Source: a virus. Taken from it: a stretch of 22,915 nucleotides of DNA. Shown piece by piece: positions 11,895 through 22,189 of this stretch (position 1 is the first letter of the stretch; the number at the start of each line of letters is the position of its first letter). The stretch lies in the IMG/VR virus record IMGVR_UViG_3300017714_000190, positions 1 through 22,915 of that record; one strand, written 5' to 3'. The notes under the pieces were generated by a model. The model was given only the letters and a program-made list of their open reading frames with translations, had not been told where the DNA came from and searched no databases. Both the position numbers and the translations under genes were made by a program.

Positions 11895-13247
11895 ATGGCA
11901 AATTACGGATACCTAAAAACCATGAGAGCGGCAGCGATTGGTACAATCCTGCCGTGGACTGGTGATTTAACAAGAGTTCCTCCAGGGTGGATTATCTGCT
12001 CTGGAGACAATGTTTTAGCAAAAGATTATCCTTTATTAGCACAAGCTATTGGAGATTATTATGGAGGATCTTCTAGTTTTAATATTACCAATTTTCCTTG
12101 GAATACATCATCAACAGAAAGTCAAGAATTTTCTTTACCAGATTTAAATCAAAAACCTCTAGCTGATTTGGATTCTGCATATTTTGGAGGTGGTGCTCCT
12201 AATAGTGAAATTGATACCGCAGAAGCTTCTACAGCAGTAGCTAGTTTCATCGGATCAGATCAAGATAATGGAACTGCAGATAGAACTAGCGATGCATATG
12301 CGGATATTTTATTTTCGTATACAGCAGAAAATGATTTCTCTGGTACTATTACAGGTAATACTTTAGACCCCGGTTTTGGATCTCGGACAGTATATACAGG
12401 CGCAAGAAAATTAGGAAGAAATCACACACCTATTCACGCTCATGAAACTTCTTTCCCTACAATTTACGGACAGGGGTTGAACCAACCAGGATCTGGTGTT
12501 GCCTGTTCCCGAGAGATTACTTATAATATCAATCAAGCTTCATTTGACGAAATTCTTGATGGAACACAAATTGACGGCAGGATTACTATCCCAATTCAGA
12601 ACTTTTCTGGAGGTGCTCCAAATCGATTAATTAATGGTAATGCTTTTGGTAATGGTACTGATGGTGTCGTATTAGGAAATATTGCATCAGAACAACCTGG
12701 ACCAAATTTAAAAGCTCAGTCAGCAATTTCTCATGGTATTTCAAATTGGATTGGCATTACTGATAGTTTTCCAGCACCGCATCCTGAAGGTGGTAATGTT
12801 TCCTCTGGGACTAATAGGCATAATAGAAAATTTGACCCACAAGTTTTAGATGGTGATCCAAACCACAATGGAGAAATGCCTTATGCTATAGGTGGAGGAA
12901 CAATTGAGGTTCCAAATAGAAACTGGGATCCTGGAGACGGAAATGCTGGTTCTGGACTCTCTGGTGACTCACATCTCCCATATAAAGTTTTCTTTAATCA
13001 CTCTGGTATTGATTTTGCTAAAATTAATAATACTGCCGGAAGAACTGATATAATTCAATCGCATGATCATGCAAGTTTCCAAGTTAATTTAGATAGAGAC
13101 TCTTCTTCTTTGAGAATGCCAGGACAATTAACATTTTCCGATGTTACTTCAAATGTTGTTCCAGATAATTTACCACAAGCACTAAATATTACTGTTACTG
13201 TACCTACTCCAAAAGTAGTTATATTGTACATAATTCGAGCATACTGA
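11895..13247 (+). CDS. Phage tail collar domain protein (short-tail-fibre-like), 450 aa
   Basis: Likely a tail-fibre or adhesin subunit contacting the host surface. Residues about 14-55 carry the tail collar signature (family PF07484): G-T-I-L-P-W-T-G-D, then V-P-P-G-W-I-I-C-S-G-D, then D-Y-P-L-L-A-Q-A-I-G and Y-Y-G-G, followed by the F-S-L-P-D-L motif near 80. Two H-x-H motifs are visible, H181-A-H183 (with H177 nearby) and H390-D-H392, of the type that coordinates metal in T4 gp12 and gp37 tips. The protein ends VVILYIIRAY, a terminus echoed in the next two genes. It starts 1 nt after the giant gene stops and shares one base with the next start (TGATG), so the three are probably co-translated. 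No clear Shine-Dalgarno is seen. Metal binding and receptor contact are inferred from the family. Confidence 0.9.
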   Translation: MANYGYLKTMRAAAIGTILPWTGDLTRVPPGWIICSGDNVLAKDYPLLAQAIGDYYGGSSSFNITNFPWNTSSTESQEFSLPDLNQKPLADLDSAYFGGGAPNSEIDTAEASTAVASFIGSDQDNGTADRTSDAYADILFSYTAENDFSGTITGNTLDPGFGSRTVYTGARKLGRNHTPIHAHETSFPTIYGQGLNQPGSGVACSREITYNINQASFDEILDGTQIDGRITIPIQNFSGGAPNRLINGNAFGNGTDGVVLGNIASEQPGPNLKAQSAISHGISNWIGITDSFPAPHPEGGNVSSGTNRHNRKFDPQVLDGDPNHNGEMPYAIGGGTIEVPNRNWDPGDGNAGSGLSGDSHLPYKVFFNHSGIDFAKINNTAGRTDIIQSHDHASFQVNLDRDSSSLRMPGQLTFSDVTSNVVPDNLPQALNITVTVPTPKVVILYIIRAY

Positions 13248-14116
13248 TGGCAAATTACGCAGTACAAAAGGCGAAATATGGTGGGATGGTTGGAACTATT
13301 CACCCATTTACTAATCAGTTGCCTGCAGAAAATGATCCAAATTCTGGTAATTTTAGATCTCAACTACCTGCAGGATTTTTGCGATGTGACGGATCAATAT
13401 TTAAACAAAGAGATTATCCACAACTAGCAGAAGTTTTGGGGATCGGTGAAAATTGTAAATTCGCTAAAGGTGAACTACAAGAAGATGAATTCCAATTGCC
13501 TGATATAGGATCAAAATATATTGTTCCTGGAGGAGCAACAGGAACTTACTTATCTCAAAATTTGTCTGACGGCACCACTCCTCATGTTGGAGCGGAGTTT
13601 GAAGTTACTTCAAATCGTGGTACATCTGCTTCAGTTAAATATGCTGGAAATTTTACTATTACTGGAAAAACTGGTGATGTATTAGGAAATCCTTTTTACG
13701 CTTCACCAGAAAATTCATTTACTGGAATTGTCACAGCTAATCATTTTCAAGGTCACGGACATGGCAGTAACGCTCAGGTTTTGAATTGTACGGGAAATTA
13801 TTTTGTTTCTCCTGCGCAAGGACCCGAAGGAAGCGATAGTCATAGTGGCAATAATTGTAGACCATTTGCAGGAAATACTCTTTATAATATTGCAACTCCT
13901 ACTGATACTAGTGCTATTTCAGCGCAACATGATCATTTGATTGATATGCCAGTATCTCAAAATGATTACGATCAAAATTTTCAGTATACATATCCAACAG
14001 TACAAGTTCCTGCGACTAGTCTTGAAACAACGGTAAATATTATTACACAAGATGTAGATACCTTTGATGAAACTGTTGCTCCATTTATTTTAGTAGAATA
14101 CATTATCAAATATTAA
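13247..14116 (+). CDS. Phage tail collar domain protein, 289 aa
   Basis: A second stand-alone collar protein. After MANYAVQK the sequence has M-V-G-T-I-H-P-F, an insertion, then L-P-A-G-F-L-R-C-D-G-S, R-D-Y-P-Q-L-A-E-V-L-G and F-Q-L-P-D-I-G by about residue 90. This is the same motif order as the preceding gene. Two H-x-H motifs are present at H170-G-H172 (with H166) and H228-D-H230. The C-terminus, ILVEYIIKY, resembles that of its neighbour. Both genes start with the identical 13 bases ATGGCAAATTACG, and the layout suggests tandem duplication followed by divergence and shortening here. The start overlaps the previous stop by one base and the next gene begins 5 nt downstream. The role is probably a fibre or collar subunit; what surface it recognises cannot be read from the sequence. 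Confidence 0.88.
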   Translation: MANYAVQKAKYGGMVGTIHPFTNQLPAENDPNSGNFRSQLPAGFLRCDGSIFKQRDYPQLAEVLGIGENCKFAKGELQEDEFQLPDIGSKYIVPGGATGTYLSQNLSDGTTPHVGAEFEVTSNRGTSASVKYAGNFTITGKTGDVLGNPFYASPENSFTGIVTANHFQGHGHGSNAQVLNCTGNYFVSPAQGPEGSDSHSGNNCRPFAGNTLYNIATPTDTSAISAQHDHLIDMPVSQNDYDQNFQYTYPTVQVPATSLETTVNIITQDVDTFDETVAPFILVEYIIKY

Positions 14117-14121
14117 TACCA

Positions 14122-17100
14122 ATGGCAATAGTAACTCAGACATTTGATGTAGCTGGACTAACAACTTTTACTCTACCTAGTGGAGTAACAGAATTTGATT
14201 ACGAAGTTCATGGCGGCGGTGGCGGTGGATCGGGAAACGATGCCGGATCTCCTGGTGGTTCTGGTGGAAATGGCAGTCTAGTCGTAGGAAAAGCTATTGG
14301 TATTACTGGTGGAACTACTTTACAAATTTTTGTTGGTGAAGGTGGTTTTGGTGGAACAACTGGAGGTGGAGGTGCTGGAGGACCTGGTGGCACTAATGGT
14401 GGTAGTGTAAGTGGTGGTGGTAGTGGCGGTAATGCAGGAAATTCTGGATCCTCAGGCGGCGGTGGCGGTGGCGGTGCTGCATCCTATATTACAATTGATC
14501 CTGGTTCTCCTGCTGGTGGCACAATCAATTATAATCAACTATTTGCGGTTGGTACATCAATTACAATTCCAGCTGGAATCTCTACAGTAAACTATACCAT
14601 AAAAGGAGCACAAGGTGGACATGGTGGAGCTAGCTTAGGGATATTTGAAGGTGTCGGTGCAACTACAATTGCTCCAAGAGGACAGGGAGGTCAAATTATT
14701 AGTGGAACATTATCAAATGTTGCTGGTAAAGCTCTCAGTATTATTGTTGGAACTAGAGGACAAAATGGCGCACAAGGGGCAGGTTCTACTCCTGGTGGAG
14801 CTGGTGGTGGTGGAGTTAAACTTGGTGGAGTAGGAGCAACAGGTGCAGCATCGGGTGAAACTTGGCAAACCAGTGCTGGTGGCGGTGGCGGTGGTGGAGA
14901 CACTGCTATTCGTGTTGTAAATGATGGAAATGCTATAGCGGTTCTGGCAGGTGGTGGCGGTGGATCAGGTGGTCAGCAATTTAATAGTCCCCTTGATTAC
15001 ACTACAATATATCCAGCTGATACTAGGTTATCATCTTCTTTGAATAATACTAACGGTGACAATTCAAATGTTCCTTCAGCGACAGCGGGTAACTCTGGCG
15101 GCGGTGGAGGTGGTGCAGGCAATCCTGGTGGGGCATTGGGGATCGTGGGTGCTGGATATAGTTATACTGCAGGGAATCATGGCGCTGGTAATACAGGTCA
15201 AGGCGGCGGCGGATACTATAATCCAAGTTACACTACAGATGCTTCTTTAGGTGATACTAACGGTCATAGAAGTGAGAGTGATCAAGCTATAAACGGAAGA
15301 ATTTCTATCAGTTATACAAATGTTATTTCTGGGGATGCGATTGTCATCGCAGGTGGTGGCGGTGGTGCTGGTGGTGCAGGAAATGATGGATCTGGTCCAT
15401 CTCCATCTCAGCGTGGATTTGATGGTGGTGTTGCCACCACTACAACTCAAAATTTAACTTCAGGATCTAATGCCCCCAATCATGGCAGTGACGGCGGTGG
15501 AGGCGGCGGTGGTGGCGGTGGCAGTCCTGGGGGTAGTCCAGGATTTACCCCTAGCAGTGATGTTGATGCAGGTGGCGGTGGTGGTGGAACATCTTTTCAT
15601 AACCTTGGATACCATGGTGCTGCTCCATCTTTTAGTCAGTCTTCATATTCTACAGGAGGAGGACAATCCACCAATGGCAATCGTGGTAAAATTGTAATTT
15701 CTTATAATAATGAGGATGCAGCTCCAGATTCTCCTGGCAACTTCTCTGATAAAACTAATGCCCTGCTTAATACTGCTTATTTTACTACTGAAGAAAAAAC
15801 AGTTGCTGGAATTAATGTTAGTGTGCCTGCATCCGCTGTAAATGCAGTAATTGTTAAAAATGACAGTAGCATGATTGGGGATACTACCTTTGTTAATGGG
15901 GATAGATTTAAATTACTCGTCACATCTTCTTCGGCATATAATGCTGAAGAAATAGGAACTATTTATTACGGAGAAATTGGATCTCAAGTTACCGCATCTT
16001 TTAAGGTTACTACAATATCAGTACCACCAAACATTCCAGATCCTTTCTCATTTACTGATGTAACTAATCAACCATTATTGACTTATGTTGATAGTAACGA
16101 AGTAACTATTTCTGGTTTAAATGCAGGTTCTGGCGCATTAGCTAGTGTATCTGCAATAACTGGGGGAAATATTACGGAAGCAGCAGTTGTTATTAATGGT
16201 GTGGAACAAGGAGCAAGTGGCGCAATTAGTAATGGTGACACATTAAAACTAAGAGTATTGACTTCTGGCATTCCAAATCTCACGACAGTTGCATCAGTTG
16301 TTGTCGGAACAGGATCTCCAGTTATTTGGAATGTAGGCACACTATTAACAGTTGATACTGGCGTAGACCCATTTAACTTTACTGACATATCAGGTGGAGT
16401 TGCTAATACACAATATGCTAGTAATGTAGAAACTATCACAGGTATCAACAGTCCTGCCGTAGTTTCAGTTACTACTAATTTCCAAGTTAATGTTAATGGA
16501 ACCGGTTGGGTTACTCCAACTAGTACTACTACTATTAGTAATAATCAAACATTGCAAGTTAGAGGAACTTCTGGACCTAGTGATGGTGATGTTGTTACTG
16601 CTTTAGTTCAGATTGGCGGTGGGGCAGCTGGAGTTGTTACAGATGAATGGAGAATTGCCACAGGAACAGCAGCAGATTTTACTCCAGACGCATTTAATTT
16701 TGTAGATAGAAATAATCAGCAAGGATTTGTTACTGTATACAGCAATACAGTAGTTCCTGGTGGATTTGATTCAACAACTTCTTTTTCTGCTAGTGTAACG
16801 AGTGCTGGTAATACTAGTAGTCAAGAGGTATCTTTTGACACCGGTAATACATGGAATCCTTTACCATATGCAATCACTGATTATGTACCAGGAACTCCAG
16901 TGCAGTTAAGATTAGTCACTGGATCTTATGCATCAACTGGTGCAACTCTATCAGTTACCATTGGTAGTGTTACTGATACTTGGACAGTTACTGTACTGTC
17001 TGCACCACCTGCTGCTGGTGGTGAAGGAACTTGGATGTCAAAAAGAAAGAAAGAAGATGGATATGCTTTAGGAACAGTTATCACAATTTTTAGACAAGCA

Positions 17101-18255
17101 GATGGTAATTGGGGTAATTTAACAGGATCAAATACTTCTAGGTATCCTGGATTTATTGAATGTGATGGAACTTCATTGCAAGCAAGTCAATATCCAGATT
17201 TATTTGATGTTATTGGCAATACATATGGTGGTGGTGGATTCAGGAGTGCTGCTGTAACATCAAGAGTTTATAGTGGCAGTTTCAACATACCGGATTTCAG
17301 AAATAGAAGAGTATTTGGAACTGGTACTGTAGATGGAAATTCTCCAGCAAGTCCAAGTGTTGTTACTAGATTTAATGCTGATGATAGCGGGACTGGTGAC
17401 TCTACTGAAGTGGGGTCTGAAGGTGGTAACTGGTACATTGCAAAAGTTGATGCTGCTGGAACCCCACCATTAGAACAAATTCAAGGAACTGGTAATGAAG
17501 GAACCGCTGGTATATTCTATGCACTTGGCACAGTTAATACTACTGGTTATGAGGAAATTAGTTCTAGAGTTAGTTTTAATATTGCAGGAAATATGAATGC
17601 TGATGTTGGACCTATGATAGAAACTTTAGTACCAATTCCAGGGCATACACATTCAGCTGGAAGTGCTAGATCTTTGAATGTGCCTATTGGTTTGATGGCA
17701 TGGGGTATTAGAGCTATGAGATGGGTCTATGAAGATAAGTTTGAGAGAGTATCTAATGATAACTGGGCTAACAATATTCCTCAGGGTCCAAGTGATGTCA
17801 ACCCCGGCACTAGTTACACTAAAACATATACTAATTTTTGGCCTTCTCCTAGAGATAATAGTTTACAGTTAGATAATAATAAAAATGCTGGAAACTATCA
17901 ATATATGGGAGCATTGGATGTCTTTACCGGTGCTGCAAATTCAAACTTGTTTACTCCCGCTGGTGGAATGTTGCAACATAATCATACATTATCTACCACT
18001 GAGTATGGAGATCAAAACAACGCATTTACATATGGAAATAATAATGGAGTAGGTACATCTTTTGGTGGAGCTGCTACTAATAATACAGTTGCAGTTGCAT
18101 TTAGTTCTTCTGAAATTGGTATTAGAGCTAACTTTGGGACATTCCAATTAGATAGTTCAAAAGCATTAATTCCTGAGGTGTCTATTCGACCAAATAAAAT
18201 AATTCCTTTAATTCAACCATTCTTTAGAGCGAAGTACCTAATTAAAGCATTCTAA
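14122..18255 (+). CDS. Mosaic glycine-rich tail adhesin with beta-sandwich repeats and C-terminal collar domain, 1377 aa
   Basis: Residues 1-530 are glycine-rich. At least two units follow the order T-F-T-L-P-S-G-V-T or S-I-T-I-P-A-G-I-S, then GAQGG or GGGGGG, then a VG-x-x-G strand, a glycine run, and A-x-A-G-G-G-G-G, closing with G-R-I-S-I-S-Y (392) or G-K-I-V-I-S-Y (522). This resembles the ALK/LTK glycine-rich domain (PF12810). Residues about 535-970 contain four beta-sandwich repeats of 103-110 residues. Residues 984-1377 are a collar module: G-T-V-I-T-I-F, P-G-F-I-E-C-D-G-T, Q-Y-P-D-L-F-D-V-I-G, F-N-I-P-D-F, and the H-x-H motifs H1175-T-H1177 and H1286-N-H1288, ending FRAKYLIKAF. It starts 5 nt after the previous gene without a clear ribosome site. 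Methionine 972 sits at the module junction behind GAAGGA, hinting that a separate collar gene was fused on. A host-recognition adhesin is the best reading; the receptor is unknown. Confidence 0.88.
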   Translation: MAIVTQTFDVAGLTTFTLPSGVTEFDYEVHGGGGGGSGNDAGSPGGSGGNGSLVVGKAIGITGGTTLQIFVGEGGFGGTTGGGGAGGPGGTNGGSVSGGGSGGNAGNSGSSGGGGGGGAASYITIDPGSPAGGTINYNQLFAVGTSITIPAGISTVNYTIKGAQGGHGGASLGIFEGVGATTIAPRGQGGQIISGTLSNVAGKALSIIVGTRGQNGAQGAGSTPGGAGGGGVKLGGVGATGAASGETWQTSAGGGGGGGDTAIRVVNDGNAIAVLAGGGGGSGGQQFNSPLDYTTIYPADTRLSSSLNNTNGDNSNVPSATAGNSGGGGGGAGNPGGALGIVGAGYSYTAGNHGAGNTGQGGGGYYNPSYTTDASLGDTNGHRSESDQAINGRISISYTNVISGDAIVIAGGGGGAGGAGNDGSGPSPSQRGFDGGVATTTTQNLTSGSNAPNHGSDGGGGGGGGGGSPGGSPGFTPSSDVDAGGGGGGTSFHNLGYHGAAPSFSQSSYSTGGGQSTNGNRGKIVISYNNEDAAPDSPGNFSDKTNALLNTAYFTTEEKTVAGINVSVPASAVNAVIVKNDSSMIGDTTFVNGDRFKLLVTSSSAYNAEEIGTIYYGEIGSQVTASFKVTTISVPPNIPDPFSFTDVTNQPLLTYVDSNEVTISGLNAGSGALASVSAITGGNITEAAVVINGVEQGASGAISNGDTLKLRVLTSGIPNLTTVASVVVGTGSPVIWNVGTLLTVDTGVDPFNFTDISGGVANTQYASNVETITGINSPAVVSVTTNFQVNVNGTGWVTPTSTTTISNNQTLQVRGTSGPSDGDVVTALVQIGGGAAGVVTDEWRIATGTAADFTPDAFNFVDRNNQQGFVTVYSNTVVPGGFDSTTSFSASVTSAGNTSSQEVSFDTGNTWNPLPYAITDYVPGTPVQLRLVTGSYASTGATLSVTIGSVTDTWTVTVLSAPPAAGGEGTWMSKRKKEDGYALGTVITIFRQADGNWGNLTGSNTSRYPGFIECDGTSLQASQYPDLFDVIGNTYGGGGFRSAAVTSRVYSGSFNIPDFRNRRVFGTGTVDGNSPASPSVVTRFNADDSGTGDSTEVGSEGGNWYIAKVDAAGTPPLEQIQGTGNEGTAGIFYALGTVNTTGYEEISSRVSFNIAGNMNADVGPMIETLVPIPGHTHSAGSARSLNVPIGLMAWGIRAMRWVYEDKFERVSNDNWANNIPQGPSDVNPGTSYTKTYTNFWPSPRDNSLQLDNNKNAGNYQYMGALDVFTGAANSNLFTPAGGMLQHNHTLSTTEYGDQNNAFTYGNNNGVGTSFGGAATNNTVAVAFSSSEIGIRANFGTFQLDSSKALIPEVSIRPNKIIPLIQPFFRAKYLIKAF
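14212..15710 (+). repeat. Glycine-codon repeat tract
   Basis: GGN-rich low-complexity DNA encodes runs of six to ten glycines, for example six at 14212-14229, seven at 14455-14475, seven at 14878-14898 and ten at 15493-15522. GGC, GGT and GGA alternate, so the runs are not perfect microsatellites, but unequal exchange between them could change the length of the domain in frame. Seven X-Pro-Gly triplets (S, G, D, T, N, S and S before Pro-Gly) are scattered through it. Confidence 0.85.
15725..17010 (+). repeat. Four tandem beta-sandwich repeats in the mosaic adhesin
   Basis: Repeat starts are at about residues 535 (PGNFSDKTN), 638 (PFSFTDVTN), 748 (PFNFTDISG) and 855 (AFNFVDRNN). The second to fourth units then have a V-x-S-N-x-V/E-T/V stretch and the first three a V/I-x-G-I/L-N motif. 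Units close with a strand such as VIWNVGT, DEWRIAT or DTWTVTV. The pattern fits Ig-like or cadherin-like beta-sandwich modules acting as spacers between the glycine-rich head and the collar domain. The fold is inferred from strand patterning only. Confidence 0.75.
17023..17037 (+). other. Possible internal ribosome site and start (Met 972) in the mosaic adhesin
   Basis: GAAGGA at 17023-17028 lies 6 nt before an in-frame ATG at 17035, exactly at the junction between the last beta-sandwich repeat and the collar module. Starting here would give a 406-residue collar protein beginning MSKRKKEDGYALG, close in length to the 450-residue stand-alone paralogue. The site may be a relic of gene fusion or may still be used. 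GGA and GAA codons are common here, so chance is not excluded. Confidence 0.35.
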
Positions 18256-18258
18256 ATA
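18251..18258 (+). promoter_or_regulatory. Possible T4-type late promoter octamer
   Basis: TCTAAATA spans the stop codon of the mosaic adhesin gene and lies 28 nt upstream of the first oxygenase ATG, in the only gap of more than 15 nt between 11893 and 22189. It matches the T4 late octamer TATAAATA at seven of eight positions. Placement at the start of the accessory gene string favours function, but AT-rich DNA yields such octamers by chance. Confidence 0.35.
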
Positions 18259-18286: not shown

Positions 18287-18958
18287 ATGCCTTCTGTACC
18301 TATTAAACCGCTTGAATTGATGCAGGATCCTAAACTCACTAAGTTTGAGTTTAAAGATTTTATTGGTCTCTGGGAAAACTTTGTTCCTGCATATATGTGC
18401 GAACAAGTTATAAATCATTATGAAGAATATATGTGTAATGGAAGTTTTATTAATTCTAGTGCTGAAGAACAACCTGTAGATAATGGCAAAACTACCGTTA
18501 TGGACGGTGGTACTCAATTTGCAAATGGTAAACTGGGAAGAAAAGATACCGCTATCCTATTAAATGATTCTAATCCTGTTTTGGGATCACAAATAAATCA
18601 ATATCTTACAGCATGTACTCAACAATATGTTGAGAAATATAGTCAGTTAAAAAATGCTAGATATGTTTCTGGTGATATGAAACTTCAAAAAACAGAACCC
18701 GAAGGTGGGTATCATGTTTGGCACTATGAAACGGGTGGATATCATTATAGTTATCGTGAATTAGTTTGGGCGATTTACTTAAATGATATGCCAGAAGGAG
18801 AAGCAGAAACAGAATTTCTCTATCAAAGAAGAAGAATCCAACCAAAACAAGGCACTTTAGTTATTTGGCCTGCTAGTATGACTCACGTTCATAAAGGTAA
18901 TACTGTGTTTACTCAAGATAAATACATTTTGACTGGATGGTACATTAAGGTTCCGTAA
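18287..18958 (+). CDS. Prolyl-4-hydroxylase-like 2OG/Fe(II) oxygenase, 223 aa
   Basis: Probably a cytosolic non-haem iron dioxygenase that hydroxylates a protein side chain using 2-oxoglutarate and oxygen. The double-stranded beta-helix core runs from about residue 125 to the end. Iron ligands appear to be H146 and E148 (WHYE), an H-x-E variant of the usual H-x-D, and H202 in T-H-V-H-K-G. K212 in DKYILTGW fits the 2-oxoglutarate-binding lysine. The segment WAIYLNDMPEGEAETEF followed by I-Q-P-K-Q-G-T-L-V-I-W-P is typical of the P4H branch. The start is the first ATG after an in-frame stop; no Shine-Dalgarno is evident. It lies 31 nt after the adhesin gene and 1 nt before the chaperone-like gene. 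The family call is strong. The substrate is unknown, with the glycine-rich adhesin upstream the obvious candidate by position. Confidence 0.88.
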   Translation: MPSVPIKPLELMQDPKLTKFEFKDFIGLWENFVPAYMCEQVINHYEEYMCNGSFINSSAEEQPVDNGKTTVMDGGTQFANGKLGRKDTAILLNDSNPVLGSQINQYLTACTQQYVEKYSQLKNARYVSGDMKLQKTEPEGGYHVWHYETGGYHYSYRELVWAIYLNDMPEGEAETEFLYQRRRIQPKQGTLVIWPASMTHVHKGNTVFTQDKYILTGWYIKVP

Positions 18959-18959
18959 G

Positions 18960-19883
18960 ATGCAAGTAAAAGCTCCAATAATCGAAGTTAATTTCGATGA
19001 AAAGGTGATTGTTTCACAATCACAGCATACAGTTATGCCCCGTGATGAAGCATGGGACAAATTTGTTCTGGATTATTTACAACCTTTGTGGCATGATCCT
19101 GGCAAAGATGAAATGCAATTTTTTGCATACTACACTGATGGATCTTACATGTGTCAGCGTAAGAAAAAAAGAGTTGATTTTCAAAACCAATCTTCATATT
19201 GGCAGACATATCAATTCAATATATTAGGAAAAGAAGAAGCAGAAAAAATTTCTCTATTATTTGATACTGTTTTCTTTTTGGAAAAAAGTGCTAAGAAAGA
19301 ATCATTCAAAGAATCTGCTAAAGAATTTTATGATAAAGCATTTTATCATGAAAAGAAATATATGAAGATGGTTAAAGAGATAAGAGGAATGTTGTTATAC
19401 AGTGACTGGAGGATGTGTGTAGATTATGAAGAAGAATTTGATGGTGAACAAGAAATGTGGAAAACCTGGAGAAAAGCATTAAGAAGAGTTCTTCCTAAAT
19501 TTGACACTTTTGAAACTGCGTTCGATGCATTTAAAGCTGCATGTGTTGCAAAATATCCTGTTGACCCTAACCAATATTTCAAACAATATCCAGACGGAAA
19601 AGATTCTGATGGAAATGTGGTAGAATACATGAGTACAGAAGATCAATTTACTAAAATGGACTTTATAGCTTCTGGCGATTTTGTTGCAGCAAACATGGAA
19701 GGTGTTGTTGAATACTTAGAACAAGTTAAAAATGATGAAATTGAAGTTGAGTCTAAAATGTATGAACTGATGGATACTTTGGAAACTAATTTGATTTATC
19801 CAGAGTTGAAAGGAAAACTATTCAAACAAGATCCAACAGGTGGTGATGTAGCAGAACACATTGGAAACATCGAAACAGATTAG
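18960..19883 (+). CDS. Tail assembly chaperone-like protein, 307 aa
   Basis: Residues about 142-179 carry the signature of phage tail assembly chaperones (PF16778-like): R142, L145-L146, S148-D149-W150, then after a short acidic loop W167, W170-R171, A173-L174-R175 and P179. In that family the usual pattern is R-x-x-L-L-x-x-S-D-W followed by W-x-x-Y-R-x-A-L-R-x-x-P, and members help fibre proteins fold or trimerise. A charged, probably coiled-coil segment (about 90-140) precedes the motif. The N-terminal 90 residues and the acidic C-terminus are not recognised. The protein is longer than typical members. TAAGG at 18946-18950 gives a 9-nt spacing to the ATG. It lies between two hydroxylase genes directly after the adhesins, which fits a role in fibre maturation. 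The motif is visible; the chaperone function is inferred. Confidence 0.65.
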   Translation: MQVKAPIIEVNFDEKVIVSQSQHTVMPRDEAWDKFVLDYLQPLWHDPGKDEMQFFAYYTDGSYMCQRKKKRVDFQNQSSYWQTYQFNILGKEEAEKISLLFDTVFFLEKSAKKESFKESAKEFYDKAFYHEKKYMKMVKEIRGMLLYSDWRMCVDYEEEFDGEQEMWKTWRKALRRVLPKFDTFETAFDAFKAACVAKYPVDPNQYFKQYPDGKDSDGNVVEYMSTEDQFTKMDFIASGDFVAANMEGVVEYLEQVKNDEIEVESKMYELMDTLETNLIYPELKGKLFKQDPTGGDVAEHIGNIETD

Positions 19884-19897
19884 ATTTAAATTTTATT

Positions 19898-20542
19898 ATG
19901 TTTGATACTTTTAGAATGTTGGGTGATGAAGATCTCAATGAAATTATGGAATATTATAGTTTCTGTAAATTTAGAGACGGATCTGCATCTGGAGACAATA
20001 ATAAATTAAAAAAATATAATTTAGAATTGTCTGATACTGAAGAAAATGAAACAAGCTTGCATAATCTGACAGAGAGTGCTATAAGAAATTGCACTGAGTT
20101 TGGATATGTTTACACACCAAAGTGTTGGAATTCTCCCATGTTCTTAAAATATGAGAAGGACATGCACTATGCGTATCATAACGATTATTATCAGATGAAT
20201 GGTGTTAGAACTGACTTTAGTGTCAGTTGTTTTTTAAATTCTCCTGATGAATATGAGGGAGGAGAGTTAATGCTCCACCTAGGTACACATGAAGTATCAT
20301 ATAAATTAGATCCTGGCATGTGTGTAATTTATCCAACAGGTACATTACATAAAGTAAATCCTGTTATTTCTGGGGAAAGGAAAGTGATGGTGTTTTGGGT
20401 GCAATCTGTGATTAATGATAGTAGGGTTCGCTCTTCTGTCATTGATATATCTAAAACAGTTTGCAAACATAGAGATTTAATACATCCTGTTGCTGCTGAT
20501 TTTGAAAAAATCAGATATAATTTAATTCGAGAGTTTTCGTGA
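19898..20542 (+). CDS. PKHD-type 2OG/Fe(II) hydroxylase (YbiX/PiuC-like), 214 aa
   Basis: A second non-haem iron dioxygenase, of the PKHD type. Iron ligands are H94 and D96 (YHNDYYQM) and H151 (T-L-H-K-V-N-P-V). R161 in SGERKVMVFWVQS fits the 2-oxoglutarate arginine, and VRTDFSVSCFLNSPDEYEGG contains the characteristic R-x-D-x-S and Y-x-G-G-E-L elements. The family tail D-S-R-V-R is also present. At 214 residues it is near the usual length of about 225. It begins 14 nt after the chaperone-like gene with an AT-only leader and no Shine-Dalgarno, and its TGA shares a base with the next ATG. PKHD proteins are widespread in cyanophages and bacteria with mostly unproven substrates, so only the chemistry, not the target, can be stated. 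Confidence 0.88.
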   Translation: MFDTFRMLGDEDLNEIMEYYSFCKFRDGSASGDNNKLKKYNLELSDTEENETSLHNLTESAIRNCTEFGYVYTPKCWNSPMFLKYEKDMHYAYHNDYYQMNGVRTDFSVSCFLNSPDEYEGGELMLHLGTHEVSYKLDPGMCVIYPTGTLHKVNPVISGERKVMVFWVQSVINDSRVRSSVIDISKTVCKHRDLIHPVAADFEKIRYNLIREFS

Positions 20543-21057
20543 TGTTTACAGCAAAAGATATAAAAACGTATCATAGAACATTTTCTAAGACAGAGAGAGA
20601 TGTGATACAAACTCACCTAGCTAGTGGTAACTGGTCTTATGGAAATGTTTCATCGTCACGCTCATATAACAACGCTCCTCCATTTTGGAGAATGAACCTG
20701 ATAGATGAAGAGTTCTTTACTAAACATTTGTTTAAAAAGGTACAAGAAACTGTTGGAGAAGAATTGGTTCTTGAAGACTGTTATTGTAATGGATCTGTAT
20801 ACGGTACTGGTGGACAACCACATGTTGATGCATTTGATGAGCGTGGTAGGACTTTTTTATGGTATGCAAATGAAGGATGGGATATTAGATGGAATGGCAA
20901 AACAGTAATACTATTTGATGAAGGTCCAGAGTTTATTGTACCTGAAATAAATAAGTCTATATACTTCCCAGGGATGGTAAAACATTTCTCTGAAGAAACT
21001 ACCAGAACATTTGGTGGAATGAGAAAAACTCTAGTCTGGAAAACGCAATTAAAATGA
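20542..21057 (+). CDS. 2OG/Fe(II) oxygenase, 171 aa
   Basis: A third, compact 2OG/Fe(II) dioxygenase. Numbering from a GTG that lies one codon upstream, the ligands are H95 and D97 (GQPHVDAF) and H149 (M-V-K-H-F-S), with R162 (RKTLVWK) as the likely 2-oxoglutarate contact; subtract one for the ATG start used here. The cofactor-fold strands F-I-V-P and S-I-Y-F-P-G precede the distal histidine, as in the 2OG-FeII_Oxy_3 group. The ATG at 20542 is preferred because it overlaps the previous stop as TGATG, with GAGAG about 8 nt upstream. The last bases overlap the next start (ATGA). The substrate is unknown. The protein is shorter than the other two hydroxylases and lacks an extended N-terminal domain. 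Confidence 0.82.
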   Translation: MFTAKDIKTYHRTFSKTERDVIQTHLASGNWSYGNVSSSRSYNNAPPFWRMNLIDEEFFTKHLFKKVQETVGEELVLEDCYCNGSVYGTGGQPHVDAFDERGRTFLWYANEGWDIRWNGKTVILFDEGPEFIVPEINKSIYFPGMVKHFSEETTRTFGGMRKTLVWKTQLK

Positions 21058-21407
21058 TATTCGCTGACACCCACGTAATTCATGATGTCTTTGAAAACTA
21101 TGCACGTTCTCTCGATAAGTGCGTAATCATTGTTGATAGAATTGGCATCAATGCTTCATCGGATCAAGATGCTATTGACAATGCTCTAGCATTTTATGGA
21201 GAGGTGTTGCCAGGAAATGTTCTTCCAACATTTAAAGTACAAAAGTTTTTTGTACTTGTGTCTGATGATAAACAAAGATCAATTGAATTTGCAAAAGAAC
21301 ATTTCCCTAAATCTGGCGATGATTTGTCTTATCCAGAAATGAAGGTAAATGTAAAAGTTTATGATAATACTGGATTTCTTGCCTACACGAATGGTTTAAC
21401 ATTATGA
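21054..21407 (+). CDS. Unrecognised protein, 117 aa
   Basis: I do not recognise this protein. It starts in a 4-base ATGA overlap with the third oxygenase gene and ends in another ATGA overlap with the next gene, so it is almost certainly translated as part of the same unit. The sequence looks alpha/beta: a strand CVIIVDRIG near 23-31, a helix after DQDAIDNALAFYG, a strand KFFVLVSDD near 64-72, a helix RSIEFAKEHF and a closing strand VNVKVYD. No catalytic motif, signal peptide or membrane segment is seen. By position it may serve fibre assembly or modification, but that is a guess from neighbours. Confidence 0.8.
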   Translation: MIFADTHVIHDVFENYARSLDKCVIIVDRIGINASSDQDAIDNALAFYGEVLPGNVLPTFKVQKFFVLVSDDKQRSIEFAKEHFPKSGDDLSYPEMKVNVKVYDNTGFLAYTNGLTL

Positions 21408-22189
21408 GAGACTATTTTGGTGGATATAAAGTAATCGATCTTCCCTCTGGAATACAGACTGCATATGGGAAATCGATTATTTACAAGTATTTTAATCCTG
21501 CAGACGCAGAAATTGTTGATCTTTGTGCCGCTATGGAAAGTGGTCTTGCTGAAAAACGTGTAGATGGTGCTAAGATAATTGAAGGTGTAATTACATACAG
21601 GGATGGCGATGAAATTCTTGGTAATCGTGTTAATATTTCTACAACTAAGTATCACACTATCCAGTCATTTCCTTTTGTTTATAAGGAACCAGACAAGCTA
21701 AAAGAATTCAGAAAAAACGGCAATGAGATTGCTATTCATGCATTTTATGCCAATCAAAATTCTGATATTGAATGGGTGCTTGCTGGCATGAGAACTATAA
21801 ACAAACCTATACATGAATTCGATTCATATCAATATTTTAATGATACGAGACAAAGATTGCATAATGCATATCAAGGTTACACTAATATAACATATTGGTT
21901 TAACGTTAATGATGATAAGATAGTTACTGAAATTAGTGATAGAACACCACTTGCACTTAGAGATGGGGATATCATCTATAATCGTGATGTAAGTTATTAT
22001 GAAGCGTTAAAAGCGGAATATTACGGTCATCTTGTAGATTCTAGACTATTAACACAAGATGAGTTTGACATAATCATCAACAATGCACCTAGATTACAAC
22101 AAACCTCCGTTAGATTTACTTGGGATTCTGGTGAGTTAGTGAAAAAACAATTGCAAGTACGAGATGTATTTGAATTTGAAGATGTTTAA
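21404..22189 (+). CDS. Unrecognised protein, 261 aa
   Basis: I do not recognise this protein. It closes the overlapping gene string, starting in an ATGA overlap with its neighbour and followed by a promoter-bearing gap. Visible elements are an N-terminal domain with KVIDLPSGIQTAYG, two similar R-D-G-D turns (YRDGDEILGNR near 66 and LRDGDIIYNRD near 185), a W-F-N-V-N-D-D strand and a helical segment SYYEALKAEYYGHL with a following T-Q-D-E-F-D helix. It is rich in Y, N and D and has no membrane segment. The two R-D-G-D turns could reflect a duplicated subdomain. A role in the virion or in fibre maturation is possible from context only. Confidence 0.82.
   Translation: MRDYFGGYKVIDLPSGIQTAYGKSIIYKYFNPADAEIVDLCAAMESGLAEKRVDGAKIIEGVITYRDGDEILGNRVNISTTKYHTIQSFPFVYKEPDKLKEFRKNGNEIAIHAFYANQNSDIEWVLAGMRTINKPIHEFDSYQYFNDTRQRLHNAYQGYTNITYWFNVNDDKIVTEISDRTPLALRDGDIIYNRDVSYYEALKAEYYGHLVDSRLLTQDEFDIIINNAPRLQQTSVRFTWDSGELVKKQLQVRDVFEFEDV

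Follow-up and report, generated by a model that had tools for sequence, protein, structure and literature searches.

A cyanophage cassette of predicted hydroxylases and a chaperone with a possible role in tail-fibre maturation

Introduction

Why would a tailed phage carry three different oxygenase genes directly behind the genes for its tail fibres? This question is raised by a 22,915-bp virus record of IMG/VR (IMGVR_UViG_3300017714_000190; "the window" below, meaning this whole stretch of DNA), which belongs to a T4-like cyanophage, matched best by Kyanoviridae myoviruses of Synechococcus. At positions 18287-22189 of the window, six consecutive genes encode three predicted 2-oxoglutarate (2OG)/Fe(II) oxygenases (A, B and C), a tail-fibre assembly chaperone (H) and two further proteins (D and E). 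As a rule, cyanophage 2OG oxygenase genes are classed under auxiliary metabolism or repair. Judged from sequence comparison, we consider it fairly likely that this cassette is instead a late tail-fibre maturation module, in which a chaperone would assist fibre folding and A, B and C would hydroxylate side chains.

Results

Gene order of the cassette

The six genes share one strand and follow each other as A-H-B-C-D-E (Table 1), with 1 bp between A and H, 14 bp between H and B, and overlaps of 4 bp at the three remaining junctions; 31 bp separate the last fibre gene from A. The open reading frames (ORFs) and the collar-domain fibre genes were re-found, and the initial annotation proved correct in its gene string, its coordinates and its family calls. 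Its division of the enzymes into subgroups also stood, A being nearest to bacterial prolyl 4-hydroxylases (P4H), B to PKHD/PiuC enzymes, and C being a compact form.

As a sequence, the cassette is not new. It is already present in S-PM2 and Syn1 (Kyanoviridae), where the block T4-GC 240-741-28-166-742-743 has the same gene order behind a gp12-like fibre and is annotated as 2OG oxygenase, tail assembly chaperone, 2OG oxygenase (PiuC), "DNA endonuclease V" and two hypothetical proteins. The window proteins are about 13-48% identical to those of this block (to S-PM2: A 47%, C 41%, B 31%, H 29% and E 13%).

Conservation in cyanophages and IMG/VR

IMG/VR was scanned with the chaperone alone, which gave 274 relatives, and 80 loci were kept. 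A lies directly upstream of H in all 80, and the order A-H-B-C is found wherever the contig suffices, except in three loci without B and C (L086, L093 and L104). Because this order is conserved in loci recruited by the chaperone alone, a chance arrangement is excluded. In the A tree the copies form one clade, within which L086/L104 and L093 fall on different branches; it therefore appears that B and C disappeared jointly on two occasions, with the A-H pair kept. A and H are the stable core of the cassette, and B and C are optional. We also considered whether a substrate domain of the fibre had been lost together with B and C; this was rejected, as the fibre C-terminus persists in all three loci.

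The set is carried by 13 of the T4-like cyanophage isolates examined. In 12 of these the genes run fibre, A, H, B, C, D, E; the remaining one, S-RSM4, is a close variant in which a small additional gene separates H from B. ACG-2014h reads fibre, 2OG enzyme, chaperone, 2OG enzyme. The initial annotation had proposed to check for neighbouring fibre genes in other cyanomyoviruses, and had named a cassette regularly found away from them as a result that would speak against its idea. The fibre gene adjoins the cassette in all 13 cassette-bearing isolates, and a long ORF ends at A in 92 of 95 loci, the other three being cut by a contig or locus end. Moreover, a hidden Markov model (HMM) of the fibre C-terminus matches 79/80 of the IMG/VR cassette loci, the exception (L083) being a shortened contig.

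One explanation of this neighbourhood requires no shared function: the order may have been inherited within one clade, the enzymes having unrelated substrates. The cassette phages do look like one related group, in keeping with the single clade of A copies, but the order is still kept at a chaperone identity of about 30%, with B/C and D present in some loci and absent from others, and the same logic recurs, built from other enzymes, in a Roseobacter phage and in phages of the P-SSM2 and S-SSM7 types (see below). We therefore regard simple inheritance as distinctly unlikely.

In Sf-CH1b, the nearest isolate to the window, three more 2OG genes stand right after the cassette (L003:15952-18401), and extra 2OG genes are likewise found there in IMG/VR relatives such as L043-L051.

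Active sites of the predicted hydroxylases

The Pfam cut-off for PF13640 is 27 bits; A (38 bits) and B (51 bits) score above it and the window copy of C below it, while the C orthologues of Syn1, S-RSM4, S-PM2, S-H9-2, S-RIM32 and other phages exceed it. The predicted ligands are H146-x-E148, H202 and K212 in A (HxE..H..K), H94-x-D96, H151 and R161 in B (HxD..H..R), and H95-x-D97, H149 and R162 in C (HxD..H..R). All of them are invariant across 14 genomes, as is R156 of C. Among the IMG/VR copies, the ligand motif fits in 77/80 for A, 70/72 for B and 67/69 for C, and most of those outside it are shortened, broken or one-residue variants. By sequence, A, B and C thus seem catalytically intact.

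The closest relatives of A in the PDB are bacterial P4H (5hv0/3itq, 1e-5), yet its triad has HxE in 14/14 genomes. HxE instead of HxD marks the A subfamily and is common to collagen-associated relatives in two IMG/VR loci (L198 and L262). The B profile matches the PKHD protein Sbal_3634 (3dkq) at 6e-40 and PiuC at 1e-35 over nearly the full length, and C has weak PDB matches to OGFOD1 and PHD2 (0.002-0.01). As far as these profile matches go, the nearest solved relatives of the three enzymes are protein hydroxylases or members of their family.

C belongs to phrog_274, which PHROGs and RefSeq label as "DNA endonuclease V". We rejected this label, given the HxD..H..R motif and the matches to PF13640, OGFOD1 and PHD2, and it appears to be an error. 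The label would otherwise favour a role in DNA repair or AlkB-like nucleic-acid demethylation, as has been put forward for the 2OG genes beside uvsX/uvsY in Syn9 (discussed in PMC2984593). Against such a role, the profiles of A, B and C match protein hydroxylases, with no AlkB chain among the PDB matches listed; C keeps the HxD..H..R of the 2OG fold; cyanophage genomes are without a denV homologue according to the same review (PMC2984593); and the cassette is located at fibre genes rather than repair genes. We consider a repair function extremely improbable. Further genes with 2OG-oxygenase signals are likely misannotated, including the "minor coat protein" SSSM7_119 of S-SSM7 and some "ferrochelatase" genes (S-SCSM1 gp124 region); the coordinates of such genes other than C are L027:5658-6317 and L011:5652-7013.

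The genes could also be auxiliary metabolic ones, whose enzymes would modulate nitrogen signalling through NtcA by drawing down 2-oxoglutarate, or would supply succinate. An NtcA/metabolic role has been put forward for the 2OG enzymes of cyanophages at large (Sullivan 2010, PMC3037559). However, uncoupled 2OG turnover needs neither fibre and chaperone neighbours nor three divergent subgroups with their own conserved pockets, and this role has in our view little chance of being the right one.

Parallel modules at collagen-like fibres

If the enzymes mature fibres, the same pairing should be found in phages with other fibres. In P-SSM5, a P-SSM2 relative, five consecutive collagen-like ORFs precede a 107-aa protein, a Phage_tail_APC (APC) chaperone at 45 bits and, last, a 2OG enzyme at 2e-16. 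The fibre of S-8S53 has 37 Gly-X-Y (GXY) triplets, GQKGQKG among them; next come 2OG enzymes, then a GT25-PLOD protein and finally an APC chaperone. Three genes stand in a row in Roseobacter phage CRP-6, which with its 45-kb genome is unrelated in build: one for a collagen fibre (3e-46), one for an APC chaperone (59 bits) and one for a GT25-PLOD-2OG fusion. The IMG/VR locus L262 combines a collagen fibre, an APC chaperone, an A-like and a B-like 2OG enzyme and a GT25-PLOD-2OG protein, and thus joins the enzyme families of the window to collagen; in L198, an A-like 2OG enzyme and an APC chaperone lie between two GXY proteins. Finally, in 36 of the 37 loci with S-SSM7-type APC genes (L110-L151), the gene directly downstream of the chaperone is a 2OG/DUF6445 gene. 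Fibre-associated proteins with a 2OG fold may thus make up the DUF6445 family (PF20043).

The IMG/VR searches with the P-SSM5 chaperone (1 locus) and the S-8S53 chaperone (7 loci) returned too few loci for statistics. A DNA pattern for GQKGQKGQKG, which takes no account of 2OG genes, picked up 120 IMG/VR loci, 115 of them with a GXY ORF. A 2OG ORF lies within 3 kb in 58/115 of these collagen-fibre loci. Counting all 2OG ORFs, some of which are GT25-PLOD-2OG fusions, 101 lie within 3 kb (0.27/kb) and 4 beyond (0.011/kb), a 24-fold difference; 104/105 are downstream on the same strand, with upstream sequence nearly as abundant. With one locus per DNA cluster, 9 2OG ORFs are near and 2 far (p ~0.005).

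The occurrence of APC chaperones and 2OG enzymes beside collagen-like fibres in unrelated lineages adds weight to a role in fibre maturation. It also bears on a further alternative, in which the hydroxylases act on host proteins (ribosomal or regulatory) or on the host surface and lie in the fibre operon only for expression timing. OGFOD1- and PHD-type enzymes act on such proteins, and C is nearest, weakly, to OGFOD1/PHD2; B is nearest to bacterial PKHD/PiuC enzymes, and relatives of A occur far from fibres. Host targets nevertheless leave unexplained both the tie between A and the chaperone in all 80 loci and the 2OG genes directly downstream of collagen fibres in unrelated phages, and we think this alternative unlikely.

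The GT25-PLOD proteins form an observation in their own right. They stand directly downstream of GQK-rich collagen-like fibres, usually with a C-terminal 2OG domain, at L282:4128-7740 (CRP-6), L154:2-6228 (S-8S53), L162, L163 and L262, with homologues in S-CAM9 and S-PRM1. By Pfam, the 2OG domain is over the cut-off in L163 and below it in L162, L262 and CRP-6, and it was not found in the S-8S53 protein. The fusion resembles collagen lysyl hydroxylase/glycosyltransferase, and these phage proteins are arguably more striking than the cassette of the window itself.

The chaperone and proteins D and E

H shares the APC motif with Phage_tail_APC/T4 gp38-type chaperones and differs from them in its length of ~300 aa and an additional beta-rich N-terminal part. 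The orthologue in S-RSM4 is a Phage_tail_APC protein by PF16778 (50 bits) and that in Sf-FR1 also passes, whereas the same search did not detect the window copy itself. The H profile matches 2kz6 in the PDB at 4e-5. The predicted model is confident over about the first 240 residues only (predicted template modelling score, pTM, 0.48), and a fold search with it gave no match at E <= 0.001.

D belongs to a family of unknown function (phrog_4883; T4-GC742 in S-PM2). E has no sequence family, and tblastn reaches just one phage; it is recovered by an HMM of its positional equivalents and was assigned by position, HMM and fold to the T4-GC743 protein of S-PM2 and Syn1. The AlphaFold model of E (mean predicted local distance difference test, pLDDT, 88.8) aligns with the predicted GC743 proteins of ACG-2014e, S-CAM1, S-RIM44 and S-CAM3 at template modelling (TM) scores of 0.66-0.71. 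In a Foldseek search of the PDB, the top matches are all ABBA aromatic prenyltransferases (E-value 5e-5, with TM scores of only 0.4-0.54), and the five beta-hairpins with helices between them in the model fit an ABBA barrel. No conserved active-site residues were found in E, just F258 being invariant among 39 homologues. Because conserved catalytic residues are lacking, client binding fits E better than catalysis, and the model suggests that E is probably a repurposed prenyltransferase barrel that binds a client.

Fibre genes and surroundings in the window

Three fibre genes precede the cassette (Table 1). The third encodes a 1377-aa fibre with a glycine-rich N-terminal part, then a collar domain and a conserved C-terminal motif that contains proline; this fibre is the likeliest candidate substrate or client of the cassette.

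A conserved late promoter before A was considered and dropped. CTAAATA at 18252-18258, which is similar to a late promoter of the T4 type, spans the stop codon of the fibre gene, 28 bp before A, and its conservation in other loci is unconvincing. The window shows no enrichment of TAAATA, whose copies in the relatives that were inspected mostly lie within the last codons of the fibre gene; terminator and promoter scans gave results no better than shuffles.

An identical chaperone (100%) occurs on two further IMG/VR contigs (L029 and L030), and the copy on L031 is 84% identical. The phage lineage of the window therefore recurs in separate metagenomes.

Table 1. Fibre genes and cassette genes of the window
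Feature	Coordinates	Strand	Evidence
Collar-domain tail fibre, 450 aa, candidate substrate	11895..13247	+	PF07484 4e-11; phrog_4591 short tail fiber 1e-84
Collar-domain tail fibre, 289 aa, candidate substrate	13247..14116	+	PF07484 7e-7; phrog_4714 tail collar 7e-75
1377-aa fibre	14122..18255	+	PF07484 4e-9; Gly_rich_2 4e-4; phrog_4924 3e-111
A: P4H-like 2OG/Fe(II) oxygenase	18287..18958	+	PF13640 3e-9; phrog_61 4e-47; PDB P4H 1e-5
H: tail-fibre assembly chaperone	18960..19883	+	phrog_4697 9e-59; DW...W..R...R (APC-type) motif
B: PKHD/PiuC-type 2OG/Fe(II) hydroxylase	19898..20542	+	PF13640 3e-13; PDB profile matches
C: compact 2OG/Fe(II) oxygenase, GTG start	20539..21057	+	phrog_274 8e-21; PF13640 21.6 bits
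D: 117-aa conserved protein, position of S-PM2 T4-GC742	21054..21407	+	phrog_4883 1e-12; alignment of 15 orthologues
E: 261-aa fast-evolving protein, position of S-PM2 T4-GC743	21404..22189	+	AlphaFold model, Foldseek

Discussion

Maturation of the tail fibres is the best supported reading of this cassette, since it accounts for the location beside fibre genes, for the nearly invariable pairing of A with H, for active sites that differ between the enzymes and for the parallels at collagen fibres. In the mechanism that we propose, H would hold the adjacent fibre proteins and help them fold, and A, B and C would use 2-oxoglutarate, iron and oxygen of the host to hydroxylate fibre side chains before the trimers fold or while they do so; each enzyme would probably have a residue or motif of its own. 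The modification may stabilise or tune the fibres through hydrogen bonding, trimer stability or receptor contact. D and E may be further fibre-specific factors, E being client-binding rather than catalytic. The sequences show the gene content and order, the intact catalytic residues, the conservation, the adjacent fibre genes and the shared logic at collagen-like fibres, whereas the action of the enzymes on the fibres, the residues modified and the benefit are inferred.

Several observations weigh against fibre maturation. A-family enzymes without the chaperone adjoin capsid/head, neck, nucleotide-sugar, talC, hli or photosynthesis genes in other cyanophages, and Sf-FR1 and S-WAM2 have the fibre and the chaperone without adjoining hydroxylases. 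Cyanophage genomes hold 3-14 matches each to PF13640 or phrog_274, and because they carry so many 2OG genes, some adjacency to fibres is expected anyway. The cassette phages share descent, so that their loci do not count as independent, and one large DNA cluster takes in half of the collagen loci. Moreover, the fibres of the window are glycine-rich and have no collagen repeats (no GXY run of 7 or more), so that the collagen analogy does not carry over directly. A GXY substrate beside a hydroxylase, the arrangement taken to indicate viral collagen modification, is present in P-SSM5, S-8S53, CRP-6 and IMG/VR loci and absent from the window. The idea of fibre maturation in the initial annotation is strengthened by the fibre neighbourhood and by the collagen-fibre parallels in unrelated lineages, whereas an exclusive tie to fibres is not supported, given the A relatives located elsewhere and the arrangement in Sf-FR1 and S-WAM2.

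Viral precedents exist for such chemistry. The collagen lysyl hydroxylase/glucosyltransferase L230 of Mimivirus is a proven precedent for the chemistry at collagen-like fibres (PMC4691112), and PBCV-1 is cited in PMC9301287 as encoding a prolyl 4-hydroxylase. As proposed for the window, these are virus-encoded 2OG hydroxylases for surface or fibre proteins of the virus itself. However, Mimivirus and PBCV-1 are eukaryotic giant viruses with collagen substrates, whereas the window belongs to a tailed phage with collar-domain and glycine-rich fibres; its three hydroxylases are separate proteins, accompanied by a phage chaperone, and no glycosyltransferase is fused to them. The modules of CRP-6, S-8S53 and P-SSM2/5 are closer in layout: like the window, they have a fibre, a Phage_tail_APC protein and a 2OG enzyme adjoining on one strand. 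Their fibres are collagen-like, and CRP-6 and S-8S53 have a GT25-PLOD enzyme; the window has neither.

A metagenome study noted that viruses carry P4HA genes as well as collagen tail fibres and termed the use cryptic (PMC9301287), and a study of phage-borne collagens placed proline hydroxylation beyond bacteria and viruses (PMC3368898). In a literature search that left most subscription journals outside its reach, we found no work joining a phage tail fibre with prolyl hydroxylase or hydroxylation, or with PLOD and collagen, and no published proposal of a phage fibre-hydroxylation module, including for the S-PM2/Syn1 block. We tentatively suggest a general, hitherto unrecognised phage fibre-modification system, in which an APC chaperone would present new fibres to 2OG hydroxylases, joined by GT25/PLOD enzymes if the fibres are collagen-like. 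The window would be the version for glycine-rich fibres, with E as a repurposed barrel. This generalisation is plausible, and we stop short of calling it probable.

If fibre maturation is the function of the cassette, part of the cyanophage 2OG gene class would move from host metabolism to virion maturation, and the labels "DNA endonuclease V", "ferrochelatase" and "minor coat protein" would hide a hydroxylase system. Phages would then perform collagen-style hydroxylation, contrary to the view of PMC3368898 on proline, and receptor-binding fibres would be linked to the oxygen, iron and 2-oxoglutarate of the host. Similar sets beside the collagen-like fibres of related viruses suggest that the chemical finishing of fibres in phages resembles that of collagen in animals.

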